DNA from: Phoenix dactylifera
Taxonomy: Eukaryota; Streptophyta; Magnoliopsida; Arecales; Arecaceae
Assembly: GCF_009389715.1 (NCBI RefSeq)
Contig: NC_052401.1
Coordinates: forward strand, 4,623,530 to 4,687,529
Length of the DNA stretch: 64,000 bases
Direction: 5' to 3'
The notes under the pieces are model-generated. The model saw only the letters and a program-made list of their open reading frames with translations. It was not told the DNA's origin and made no database searches. Numbering within the stretch: position 1 is the first letter of the stretch; each line of letters starts with the position of its first letter. Positions 3,624 through 9,600 of the stretch are shown piece after piece. Position numbers and translations under genes: made by a program.

Positions 3624-6600
3624 ATGGCGGAGGTGAGGGCGAACAAGAAGGTTGTGTTGAAGGACTTCATAACGGCGGGTTTCCCCAAGGAGAGCGACAT
3701 GGAGGTCGTGACGACGGACACCGTCCGATTGAAGGTCCCCGAGGGATCGAAGGCGGTGCTGCTCAAGACCCTGTACCTCTCCTGCGACCCTTATATGCTA
3801 TGGCGTATGAGAAAGCACGACGAGCCCTCCTTCGTCCCCGACTTCGTCCCCGGCTCGGTATACCTTATAAATACAATATATAATAAGACCCCTCTCTCCC
3901 TCTCAGTTTTTTTTTTGTTCCTACAACTTATTTCTCTTATGTTTTCTTAGGAGTTATGGTAGCTGTTCATGGAGTCTTCGGTCTAAGTTTTTAAGCCCTG
4001 GTTTCGGAGGAGGGTGAAGAGATGGAACGGTAGCTGATAGGGTCGGAAATTTTATGGGGGCTTGGGGTTTGAACTTGGACAACTTCATGGTACAGTTTTG
4101 CTTAAATTAGATGCGACGATTAAGATTATGGGGCTTCTCTTACGTTTACTACACGCACCGACTCATTCTGTTGTACAGTAGTTACAACTTTGGAGAAAAA
4201 GCACAATTAAATATGTTATTTGAGCACGAAATGGCAAGAGAGGGCTGGGTAGAGAAGTTTATAGGAAAAAAAAATCATGGAAAATGTTAGGAAAATGAGG
4301 GTGAAACATGATCACAAAACTACGGCGAATTTGATGGTTCTTTTCCAAGCATGATTCGATGAATTTTACTTTGATCAGACCGACCGAGGTGTCGGGCACT
4401 CCCGCTTTGTCAGTCCTATGAGGGCATTGAGAATAGAGTTTTATTCTTGGAATAATCATGATAAATTCTGATTGAAAATACAATTTTTGGATATTAGGCT
4501 CTAAGAAGAATTTTCCAAATTAATTGGATCTGTTAGTTGGATTGCATTTGCAAGACAAGTAATATTTTATTTTTCTAAATTTATCAGGAATCATTAAATA
4601 TTTTATATTCATGATTTTGAACAGTATTATTCATGATGCATAAATTTGATGGATAATATATTGTTTTGGAATATTATGACAATATATGATCTTTTTATGA
4701 ATTTGATGAATTTGACACTTCATAATTTTGGAATTGGAATATGAAACCTAAAACTATTTGAATTTCGACCTGACTGTATTAAGAACTCTGCCAATAGGGG
4801 CTATTACGTTGGCATATGATTTGTCCTGAAGGTTGTGTCCAAGATGATTAGTGATGTACCGTCGGCAGACAAGCAATGCTGAAGGACTTTGCTGCTAGAT
4901 AATACGCAGCTCACCGCAAAAAGATTAATCGGTGTTATGACCCTGCCACTGGAAAGACGTGGTCATAGCTCAGGATCGATAAAATAAAATGAATATTTGA
5001 AAGAATTTGAATCCATGAAAAGAATTTTAAAATTTTAAGAAGAATGTGATTCATATATTGATATTGTATATGTGCTTATTTTCTACAAATTATTAACTAT
5101 CTGATTACCTGATTTACTTAGCTAAAGTGATCATTGCTTATTGGGTTGTTTAGCTCGTTATACGATTTTTTATTTTTTTAACAGATTCAGAGAACTAACC
5201 TACCGAGATTTTCAATATGGAAGAGCGACTAGAAGAAATGTGGCACAAGTTATCTTAAATTAGAGTTTATTTAAATTAATGTTTTACCTTAAAGTAATGT
5301 TAGAGTTGCGAGACATTGTAATTTAAGTTAGTTAATAAAACAAAGTTTACATATAATTAGTTAAATTAATTCTGCTGCATATTTATGATATTGTGTTGAG
5401 ATGGCATGCATATTTGTGAGGAGAGTTTTCTATGAGTATGCGGCGGTTGACGCGACCTTTGGCTCGCGATCTCGGGTCAGGAGTGTGACAGTATATGTGT
5501 GTGTTTTCCCTTCTCTAATAAAAAGTATTTTTAGCACGTCTTTAGGTGTTCTTATGATAGTTGTAACTCATTGAGAAATGCTATGTTGCAGCCCAATAGT
5601 CGATCCGTCTGAAAATTGGACTGCTTTGATCTGGATGCAGCAATACTAGTTTTGGTATAAAGTTTACTATGGAAAACGTGCAATACGTGTATTTGGAAGT
5701 GAGAAATGTGTATAGGGTTCAAAAGAGGCTGCAGAGCAGGAAGAAAGCAAATAGTGTCTAACAGTGCAGCTTCTGTCATTCTTTTGATTAGATGTTAGTT
5801 TTTGCATTCAGTCATTTGATGGGGCACTCAGGGAGTGTGGTCTTGTACGATCATAAACTTGAGAAAGATAGGTTGTTATGTATCCAAGAGTGGGTTTCCT
5901 TCTCTTTTGGAGTTGCCATGTTGCACGTCTGAAGGCAAAGCATGAGATGATCAGTTGAAAAATATTGGAAGAATATTGGAAGAGGGAATGAGAGAGACTG
6001 GGAGAGACAATAGAATCGATGGGAAACTATGGTGGAATGGCTAGGAAAATCATAGATATAAGGCTAAAATAGCAAGTCAAGAGAGGAAAAACATGTCAGT
6101 GGTAAATTTATGTGGAAGGAGTGTCACGCCCCCACCTCTGCGAGGCACATGAGGCACCTAGTGCCCACGTGGGGGCTACATGAGGGGGAAACACGGGGCT
6201 CCCCTGCCAGATATTGTCCGGTTCTGGGGCTTCACGCAAGCGTCCTTCATCCCTCCTCGGTTTTGTTTTCCTCCCAAAACGCGTCGCAGGATTTGGAGAC
6301 ACCCGCCTCATATGCCCAAATTCTAGAACGAGTCTTTCCGATGTGGGACTATTGGGCCTCACACCCTTCCCACCATCGGACAAGGCTTTGATACCAAATG
6401 TCACGCCGCCGCCTCTGCGAGGCATGTCACGCCCCCGCCTCTGCGAGGCACGTGAGGCACCTAGTGCCCACGTGGGGGCCACATAAGGGGGGACCGCGGG
6501 AATCCCCTGCCAGATATTGTCCGGTTCTGGGGCTTCACGCAAGCGTCCTTCACCCCTCCCCGGTTTTGTTTTCCACCCAAAACGCGTCTGCAGGATTTGG

Positions 6601-9600
6601 AGACACCCGCCTCATATGCCCAGGCTCTGGAACGAGTCTTTCCGATGTGGGACTATTGGGCCTCACACCCTTCCCACCATCGGACAAGATCCGTCCTCGG
6701 CTTTGATACCAAATGTCACGCCCCCGCCTCTGCGAGGCACATGAGGCACCTAGTGCCCACATGGGGGCCACATGAGGGGGAAACACGGGGCTCCCCTGCC
6801 AGATATTGTCCGGTTCTGGGGCTTTACGCAAGCGTCCTTCATCCCTTCCTGGTTTTATTTTCCTCCCAAAACGCGTCTGCAGGATTTGGAGACACCCGCC
6901 TCATATGTCCAGGCTCTAGAACGAGTCTTTCCGATGTGGGACTATTGGGCCTCACACCCTTTCCACCATCGGACAAGAGCCGTCCTCGGCTCTAATACCA
7001 AATGTCACGCCGCCGCCTCTGCGAGGCACGTGAGGCACCTAGTGCTCACGTGGGGGCCACATGAGGGGGGAAACACGGGGCTCCCCTGCCAGATATTGTC
7101 CGGTTCTGAGGCTTCACGCAAGCGTCCTTCACCCCTCCCCGGTTTTGTTTTCCTCCCAAAACGCGTTTGCAGGATTTGGAGACACCCGCCTCATATGCCC
7201 AGGCTCCGCGCAGAGGTGGAGGTGTGACATTTGGTATCAGAGCCGAGGACGGCTCTTGTCCGATGGTGGGAAGGGTGTGAGGCCCAATAGTCCCACATCG
7301 GAAAGACTCGTTCTAGAGCCTGGGCATATGAGGCGGGTGTCTCCAAATCCTGCAGACGCATTTTGGGAGGAAAACAAAACCGGGGAGGGGTGAAGGAGCT
7401 TGCGTGAAGCCCCATAACCGGACAATATCGGACAGGGGAGCCCCGTGTTCCCCCCTCATATGGCCCCCACGTGGGCACTAGGTGCCTCACGTGCCTCGCA
7501 GAGGTGGCGGCGTGACAAGGAGATATATACTTTGAAAAGCAATGGTTAGAATTTCATCTTTATAATTGTAGAAATAATACATATGGATCCTACATTGTGT
7601 TAAATAGTCATATTCTGTGTAATTCATGTTTGCTACATCATTAGAGCTCAAATAACAGCTAGTATTTTTGAACTTGACGAAGTAAAAGGCCATCCATTTC
7701 CCCAATCAAGCTAAAGCTGTTTCGGACAATATTACCATTATGGAACTTCTACTTATGTAAGCTTACATTTTAAGGTTCCCTGTTTCTCCAAGTTCATCTT
7801 TTTTCTTCTTTCGTTGTACAGGTCATAACTGGTTTTGGTGTAGGTAAAGTGGTGGATTCTAGCCATCCAGATTTCAAGGTAGGTGACTTTGTGTGGGGCA
7901 TGACTGGATGGGAAGAGTATAGCCTCATCACAGAAACAGAGATGCTTTTCAAGATCAGATACACTGATGTTCCCCTTTCCTATTACACTGGCCTTCTTGG
8001 TAAGTTGTTTGTTCAGCAAAATGCCTATCCGAATATGTTGAGTACATAACCATTAAACAGTAGTCATTCTTTGATATCGTTATATGCTACTTTAAGGTTC
8101 TTCTGATTTGACAGTTGTGCTACATTGTTGTTTAACAACTGTGGTTGTAAATCTTGCAACAATGGCAAAATGATACTGAAAATCATTAACATCTAACATG
8201 GTATGGAATATGGAATATCAATGTTAGTTTTTTTATCAAAAAATCCTTGGTATTACCTATTAATGATAATGGAAATGTTCAGGGATAAGTAAGGCCATAT
8301 GTGAATTATATCATCTGGATCAAAGATTGCCTGTTGAGGCAGATACCTGAAACCATGTTCAGGAAAAAAAAAGTCAAACAAGTGAAAAGCTCAGTGTAAA
8401 TTAGATTTATTTTTTCAATGATTAAGGTGGTTTCAATGATTAACAGAGTCCACAAGTGTACTAAACCAGATGTAGATCAAGTAATCACTATGGTGAAGAA
8501 AAAGAATGTCACTGAACTTTGGTAGAATAGTTCTGTTCCTTAGTTTCCGTGCTTCCCGTGCAATTTGTCATATGGCTTCTGACATCACTATTTTCATATT
8601 CAGGCATGGCAGGGTTCACAGCTTATATTGGATTTCATGAGATCAGCTCGCCAAAGAAAGGGGAATATGTCTTTGTCTCTGCTGCATCAGGTGCCGTTGG
8701 ACAGCTTGTTGGGCAGCTTGCCAAATTAATGGGCTGTTACGTGGTTGGAAGTGCTGGTTCTGATGAAAAGGTTTGTAAGACTGTGACTTGAGTTCTCAAA
8801 TTTTGGATAAGAAGAATTTCTGAAACACATAAGAAATACAAAAAATTGATCAGGCATGAGGTTAGAACCTGCACATAAAAATTGATAAGAGGAATTTTTA
8901 ACAGAGTACACCTATTAGTTGTTTACTTGAGGTTTCATGTATTGGATTCAGTTTACCCAAATTTTGTTTTTCAGAATATAGATAATGGGAGTGTTTCTGG
9001 GAGCACTTCACATCAAATTTCCTTAGATCCCTTTTCACCTGCAATTTATTATGCAAACAACCTCAGGGGCTTAGATATTGAAAAATGCTACAATTTTGTA
9101 GGTCCCCAATCCCTATTAGAAGAATGCACCATCGATAACCTGAAATGTTTCACAGTGGATGTGTTCTTTTTCTGTTTTCTTATGACTAACATGAGGTCGA
9201 AGAGGTATAATGGATATGATTGTGGTTGCAGAGAAGAAAATTGTACATATTCAGCTTTAGTGAAACAAAGCACTAGTCCTGAGAGATTTTGTGTTATCGT
9301 ATGCATATTACTCATGCCTCTTCTGTTTAAGCATCACTCAATTTCTTTTTTGGCACTACAGTCCTGAGAGAGATTTTGTGTTCTCATTGCATTTTACCTA
9401 TGCCTCTTCTGTTTAAGATTGCTCAACTTCCTTTTTGGCACTGTCTACTCAGGTTAACTTATTGAAGAACAAGTTTGGTTTTGATGAGGCTTTTAATTAT
9501 AAGAAGGAGCCAGACTTGAGTGCAGCTTTAAAGAGGTTGGTTGCTTCTTCTTTTTTTAACTGACTTTTTTTTTTTTTTTTATCTCGAGAGAACTGATGGT

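Follow-up and report, generated by a model that had tools for sequence, protein, structure and literature searches.

A TRIM array with two U5 borders in date palm, probably inserted as one chain of joined cDNAs

How can an array of retrotransposon units come to lie in a chromosome with the same end of its long terminal repeat (LTR) facing outward on both sides? The question is raised by a terminal-repeat retrotransposon in miniature (TRIM) in a 64,000-nt stretch of date palm DNA (Phoenix dactylifera, contig NC_052401.1, positions 4,623,530 to 4,687,529; hereafter the window). The TRIM array at 6122–7517 is a single insert of 1396 bp between two copies of AGGAG (6117–6121 and 7518–7522), and both of its outermost ends are the 3′ (U5) end of the LTR, reading TGTCACG on the left and CGTGACA on the right. 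A first-pass annotation had described the insert, its target site duplication, and its identical borders in these terms, and all three are confirmed here. Judged from sequence comparisons, it is probable (roughly 0.85) that the window insert represents one integration of a chain of TRIM complementary DNAs (cDNAs) that was joined outside the chromosome and entered via two U5 ends.

The family unit is 288 bp long and consists of a 242-bp LTR (TGTGAGG...GTGACA) and a 46-bp internal domain with a primer binding site (PBS) and a polypurine tract (PPT). Read in sequence, TTTGGTATCAGAGCC follows the 5′ LTR and the PPT, GGTGGGAAGGG, precedes the 3′ LTR; the PBS, TGGTATCAGAGCC, is presumably of the initiator-Met tRNA type. 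From left to right, the minus-strand part of the array comprises a complete LTR with its U5 end outermost (6122–6363), an internal domain with a short internal deletion (6364–6398; 35 of 46 bp), a 26-bp stub of the LTR 3′ end (6399–6424) abutting the U5 end of the LTR that follows, that LTR in complete form (6425–6667), a 46-bp internal domain (6668–6713), another complete LTR (6714–6956), a further 46-bp internal domain (6957–7002), and an LTR truncated on its U3 side, from about LTR position 42 (7003–7205). The plus strand takes over at 7205/7206 with a 24-bp stub of the LTR 3′ end (7206–7229), an internal domain running from TT and the PBS to the PPT (7230–7275), and a complete LTR, again with its U5 end outermost (7276–7517). 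The 26-bp stub had been correctly recognized in the first pass, as had the strand switch, then placed near 7207. The direct 289-bp units annotated at the same time are present, except that the first spacing is 277 bp, the leftmost internal domain measuring 35 bp and not 46 bp.

The array can be divided into three pieces (stub-internal-LTR, truncated LTR-internal-LTR-internal-LTR, and stub-internal-LTR), every one of which is intact at its U5 end and truncated on its U3 side. A single T after the U5 end at 6425 can be assigned to either side of its joint. The junction at 7205/7206 connects two truncated LTRs (...CCCAGGCT/CCGCGCAGAGG...), with CTC common to both sides and about three extra bases, as read by eye. 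With at least three LTRs, at least two internal regions, and one target duplication, the array has the makeup of a tandemly arrayed TRIM (TA-TRIM). Three open reading frames (ORFs) of at least 120 aa lie across it, with no Pfam matches. An Rfam search of 6050–7600 gave no match at an E-value of 1 or better, 5S rRNA included, and membership of Cassandra was rejected because the TRIM LTR has no 5S rRNA-like match. The LTR copies diverge by 5 to 7% from one another, a figure that was not taken for dating because some of the differences are variants present at other loci too. One LTR variant, 233G>C, occurs in both 7003–7205 and 7276–7517, while its frequency elsewhere rounds to 0.00 among the full copies compared; its presence on both arms hints at a common source RNA for the two.

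An uninterrupted form of the site is preserved in a paralogous gene copy within the window. The left flank of the insert (5491–6121) aligns to 13860–14458 and the right flank (7517–8883) to 14453–15835. At the empty site defined by this flank alignment (14380–14540, plus strand), the gene copy reads GGAAGGAGATATATA, with AGGAG present once, at 14454–14458, so the AGGAG duplication around the insert is not due to chance. A second contig, C1004, has the identical piece order and duplication; it matches the window at 1388 of 1396 aligned insert bases and, in the flanks, at 1000/1000 and 997/1000 positions. This agreement in structure makes local misassembly unlikely, and an assembly artefact was rejected.

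Symmetric borders recur elsewhere in the same genome. The query for a first set of loci was the window U5/U5 array; the own-genome search gave 1090 candidate places, scored 40 of these, and listed a portion of 324 matches. Set 1 consists of the window and 39 stretches fetched at the listed places, whose pieces were ordered by jump-aware alignment to the window unit. Borders were checked for a 5-bp duplication, and an insertion was called resolved if both borders were found with a duplication matching at 4 or more of 5 positions. Once L013 and L014 had been merged, L041 and L042 likewise, and L050 assigned to L019, removal of L009 (the same locus as the window, on C1004) and L040 (a near-copy of L036) left 36 distinct insertions. 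The query for set 2 was a single unit with a short stub only and no inversion; among the part of its 191 matches that was listed, 23 loci lay outside set 1, and 21 insertions were counted after L053 (an allele of L032, with the same duplication and joint and 97–98% identity) and L065 (a copy of L064, 99.9% identical) were dropped.

Set 1 contains 10 U5/U5 insertions (nine with a 5/5 duplication, L038 with 4/5), 16 U3/U5 (L018 with 4/5), no U3/U3, and 10 without resolved borders; the corresponding numbers for set 2 are two (L052 with 5/5, L070 with 4/5), 11 (L063 with 4/5), zero, and eight. Taken together, 39 of the 57 distinct insertions are resolved, as 27 U3/U5, 12 U5/U5, and no U3/U3, and a split of 12 vs. 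0 has a probability of 0.0005 under equal chance. The inner joints differ among the 12 U5/U5 loci, which are therefore separate events and not one spreading palindrome. The first-pass annotation had called insertion by two U5 ends unusual, which does not hold within this TRIM family (12/39 resolved insertions). It had proposed a search of the source genome for other loci with these borders and the inverted junction; U5/U5 borders occur at 12 loci, the window included, and the inner joints differ among them. One of the U5/U5 insertions (L030) has a 97-nt filler at its inverted joint (about 3407–3503), related to a repeat that flanks other loci.

Ordinary two-LTR copies of 531–532 bp with 5-bp duplications also exist (e.g., L055, L059, L060, L066, and L067), and three of the U3/U5 insertions (L011, L028, and L054) contain inversions, so not all 27 are simple. 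A fold-back DNA transposon, the alternative named in the first pass, was rejected on several grounds: the family has a PBS and a PPT, normal LTR-internal-LTR copies are found, 27 of 39 resolved insertions are U3/U5, and the inverted joints are locus-specific. Of the insertions without resolved borders, those in set 1 are L020, L023, L024, L026, L035, L036, L039, L043, L044, and L045, and several insertions of this class probably join other elements. A pentamer search in the fetched stretches did not find the far borders of L023, L024, L036/L040, L039, L044, L045, L026, and L035. L043 has two U5 ends and no duplication, L020 has a duplication but ends within the internal domain, and the outer U3 end of L062 (set 2) carries GG but is not flanked by a duplication.

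An unintegrated linear cDNA is expected to carry extra bases beyond the LTR: at its U5 end the TT in front of the PBS, and at its U3 end bases of the PPT. Among internal intact ends in set 1, GG stands before 11 of 11 U3 ends, vs. 2 of 16 at duplicated host borders (Fisher 6e-6), and TT follows 10 of 12 U5 ends, vs. 1 of 36 at duplicated host borders (1e-7). With the same filter in set 2, GG was found at 4 of 5 U3 ends and TT at 1 of 3 U5 ends, L054 supplying one of the exceptions for each. Set aside from these counts were L016, L026, and L034 (a normal PBS plus one extra base) and L041 at 1784 (a partner-type PBS), and L017 at 3594, which the filter had labelled normal, was added. Left out of the U3 count of 11 are L017 at 4901, which has an internal deletion, and the outer ends in L024 and L026, which lack a duplication; these two outer ends likewise carry GG. 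Three of the 36 host-border U5 ends (L037, L038 left, and L047 left) were missed by the filter and read directly. A wider, earlier set gave 14/14 vs. 2/17 for GG; a G in L023 and L032 can be assigned to either side, and without both the count is 9/9.

An exact genome-wide search for GGCGTGACA-N(0-25)-TGTGAGGCCCA, a pattern that misses diverged copies, found 39 U5-to-U3 joints, while a control pattern found none. In 36 of them the spacer is at most 12 nt long, and these short spacers all end in GG (36/36) and mostly start with TT (24/36); they comprise TTTGG (8), TTGG (7), TTAGG (4), GG (4), TTTTGG (2), and 11 that occur singly. The remaining three spacers are long and resemble internal deletions. 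The 13 five-base spacers (TTTGG 8, TTAGG 4, GTGGG 1) lack the varied pentamers that side-by-side element insertions predict. TTTGG alone could derive from a deletion in the internal domain; TTGG, TTAGG, and GG could not so easily. Together with the empty site and the different inner joints of the 12 U5/U5 loci, these unprocessed-end bases in relatives of the window array support the first-pass suggestion that a rearranged cDNA was inserted, as opposed to a later recombination of a normal insertion.

Truncations show a related asymmetry. Reverse transcription begins at U5 and finishes at U3, and a predominance of truncations on the U3 side fits this order. In set 1, 13 of 20 piece ends on the U5 side were natural (11 at the LTR end plus 0–3 bases, two after 12 PBS bases), vs. 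10 of 38 on the U3 side (P 0.006). Orientation switches in this set connect U3 sides in 11 cases vs. U5 sides in two (P 0.02). A fixed RNA 5′ end as the start of the truncated pieces was rejected, as the 5 of 24 ends at LTR positions 215–219 are not significant (scan P 0.10).

Three insertions combine the TRIM with a larger element between the two copies of a single duplication, and in each a TRIM U5 end forms both borders. The longest (L013 + L048 + L014; C564 54882–63382; duplication AGTAC) is an 8.5-kb composite of TRIM arrays and a Ty3/gypsy element with pol; the others are L042 + L041 (C1410 49813–56569; CATAT) and L019 + L050 (C14 900967–904499; ACCAT), the latter containing an LTR that we call LTR-B. 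The C564 insert has a 597-aa ORF in which RT_RNaseH, Integrase_H2C2, and SH3_Tf2-1 score above cut-off, while rve and Chromo score below it; the listed stretches of C1410 showed no comparable ORF. The boundary between LTR-B (about 1.9 kb in the fetched sequence) and the TRIM internal domain falls at the PBS or beside it in L013, L044, L014, and L019, and in L035 and L042 an LTR-B-type end, TTTA(G), is joined to GG plus the TRIM U3 end. An exact pattern search for the partner U5 end (TTTAG) joined to the TRIM U3 end gave no matches, L035 and L042 each differing by one base. The lone exact U5-U5 joint in the genome connects an LTR-B end (96% identical over 296 bp) to a TRIM LTR with AA between them; adjoining this joint, in L075 (297–578), a minus-strand TRIM LTR and internal domain turn to the plus strand. 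Joints between TRIM and LTR-B would be expected if the cDNAs of both were made in the same particle, and the gypsy element of the composites is a candidate helper of the TRIM.

How might such a molecule arise? Under the mechanism we propose, cDNAs whose U5 end is complete but whose U3 side is ragged would be joined extrachromosomally, for instance at their U3 sides. The U5 end would be the reliable one, since reverse transcription starts there and may often leave the U3 side unfinished. Joining could occur in the particle or the nucleus, through end joining or template switching, and in the window molecule two of three U5 ends would stay free. Integrase supplied in trans, probably by a Ty3/gypsy element, would then process the free U5 ends, giving an insertion with a 5-bp duplication. 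For the family as a whole, we think it likely that spread occurs largely as extrachromosomal concatemers of full or partial TRIM and gypsy-partner cDNAs, and that the U5 end, whose position is set by the tRNA primer, is used for integration by default; U5/U5 insertions would then be expected to recur and U3/U3 insertions would not.

Several observations weigh against this account. Borders are not resolved in 18 of 57 insertions, and the set 1 query, being itself U5/U5, may enrich such structures (10 of 26 resolved insertions; the share in set 2 is 2 of 13). The window's own two joints lack a clean TT or GG signature, and the low TT count at internal U5 ends in set 2 points the same way. The 36 short-spacer joints may include multiple copies of a single event. 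Joints between intact ends number 36 in the same direction vs. one U3-U3 and one U5-U5, where joining separate molecules at random would predict about 2:1:1; the surplus of same-direction joints may reflect circles of one molecule or the loss of perfect palindromes. Finally, without the two PBS-copy ends, the asymmetry of natural piece ends falls to 11/20 vs. 10/38 (P 0.045).

Other routes to the same structure differ in how the inverted joint was made. A tentative alternative is that the reverse transcriptase switched templates, by fold-back or by a jump to another minus-strand cDNA, and that the two U5 ends of the product were then integrated. L011 holds a perfect fold-back of the internal domain at about 3336–3371 (TTTGGTACAAGAGCCG-TCTT-CGGCTCTTGTACCAAA), whose arms agree with each other where their bases differ from the window internal domain, as expected of self-primed copying. 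The turn falls at the palindrome CACGTG in L070 and at a shared CCGATG in L010, and the TRIM-partner chimeras meet at the PBS or beside it. The L011 fold-back and the L070 turn suggest template switching at these loci. However, many joints use full-length unprocessed ends (TT, GG), which are better suited to end joining, and CTC with its extra bases at 7205/7206 fits both processes alike. Self-integration of the cDNA by integrase before host integration was also raised in the first pass. It is seen at L054 (207–1276), where CATATGA/TGTCACG and CCTCATA/TGTGAGG share 5 bp (TATGA/TCATA) inside another TRIM LTR, neither TT nor GG is present at the joined U5 and U3 ends, and an outer ATTTT duplication encloses the whole; this arrangement is an autointegration scar. 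The window stub joint likewise lacks the full TT, but by eye there is no matching 5-bp overlap at the window's second joint, and internal intact ends in set 1 mostly carry TT or GG. For the window, autointegration is an unlikely source of the rearrangement.

The two remaining explanations place the rearrangement in the chromosome. In the first, two ordinary TRIMs would have inserted at the same AGGAG, one in each orientation, and the palindromic centre, being unstable, would later have been deleted. The two window joints taken alone are compatible with such an origin: the predicted centre is a long palindrome, and the window joint lacks parts of both LTRs. At all 12 loci, however, a second hit would have had to fall precisely within the duplication made by the first, and the GG endings of the short direct LTR-LTR spacers count against it. 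It is refuted at L047 (duplication ATGAT), where the lone exact U3-U3 joint reads CCTCACA-CC-GG-TGTGAGG, the spacer between the intact U3 ends being CC-GG and not a host pentamer. For the window we regard double insertion as very improbable. Growth of the array in place by unequal crossing over, with the inversion as a later rearrangement, echoes proposals in the available sections of two papers: unequal crossing over was proposed for Wukong (PMC4528315), and recombination is among the proposals for Cassandra (PMC7215508). Chromosomal growth cannot convert U3/U5 into U5/U5 borders with an intact duplication, nor can it create joints ending in GG, and in view of the empty site and the genome-wide GG joints there is little chance that the window array grew in this way, even if crossing over may change the number of units within arrays.

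Exon-like ORFs place the insert in a putative intron of an ADH-like reductase gene. This gene is tandemly duplicated in the window (3400–10529 and 12760–17404), with the insert in the first copy only, and its Pfam domains are ADH_N_2 and ADH_zinc_N_2 above cut-off and ADH_zinc_N just below. Elsewhere in the window, a 308-aa ORF at 267–1193 has a Retrotrans_gag domain.

If concatemers are indeed the form in which the family spreads, genomic TRIM arrays would be a fossil record of reverse transcription failures. The TRIM-partner composites offer a route to the helper of a non-autonomous element, as both can be locked in one insertion. Retroviral 2-LTR circles and autointegration products are likewise end-joined cDNA ends. 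The LTR-LTR joints of carrot extrachromosomal circular DNA (PMC9324142) also join cDNA ends but occur in circles, whereas the joints described here lie within chromosomal insertions with duplications; this and the following comparisons draw on the available sections of each paper. We found no report of a U5/U5 border bias or of cDNA-end bases at array joints among the open-licence papers listed, which is weak evidence of novelty.

Gao et al. (2016; PMC4717578) reported TA-TRIMs from 35 of 43 genomes, and the window array resembles them in its at least three LTRs, at least two internal regions, and one duplication. Inverted tandem TRIMs are already published, as the same paper includes one maize example, a Zma-SMART case of two inverted TRIMs with the duplication CTTCA (Fig. 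2C legend). For that case, the sections available do not state the outward LTR ends, the joint bases, or a mechanism, in contrast to the 12 U5/U5 and zero U3/U3 insertions with cDNA-end signatures in date palm. Cassandra (Kalendar et al., 2020; PMC7215508) is alike in forming long TRIM arrays, for whose origin recombination was weighed against template switching. Those arrays are described as tandem units, with no inverted ones in the sections available, and the window TRIM differs in having no Rfam 5S rRNA match. Rice tandem LTR retrotransposons (Morales-Diaz et al., 2025; PMC11899658) are also similar: they have been interpreted as single insertions bounded by one duplication, an empty site being described for one locus. 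They differ in that they are coding elements in direct arrays, with an origin left between complex insertion and illegitimate recombination. The origin of tandem LTR-retrotransposon arrays is thus left open in both the rice and the Cassandra work, and the symmetric borders and unprocessed-end bases in date palm, which imply that such structures were built before integration, separate the two proposals.

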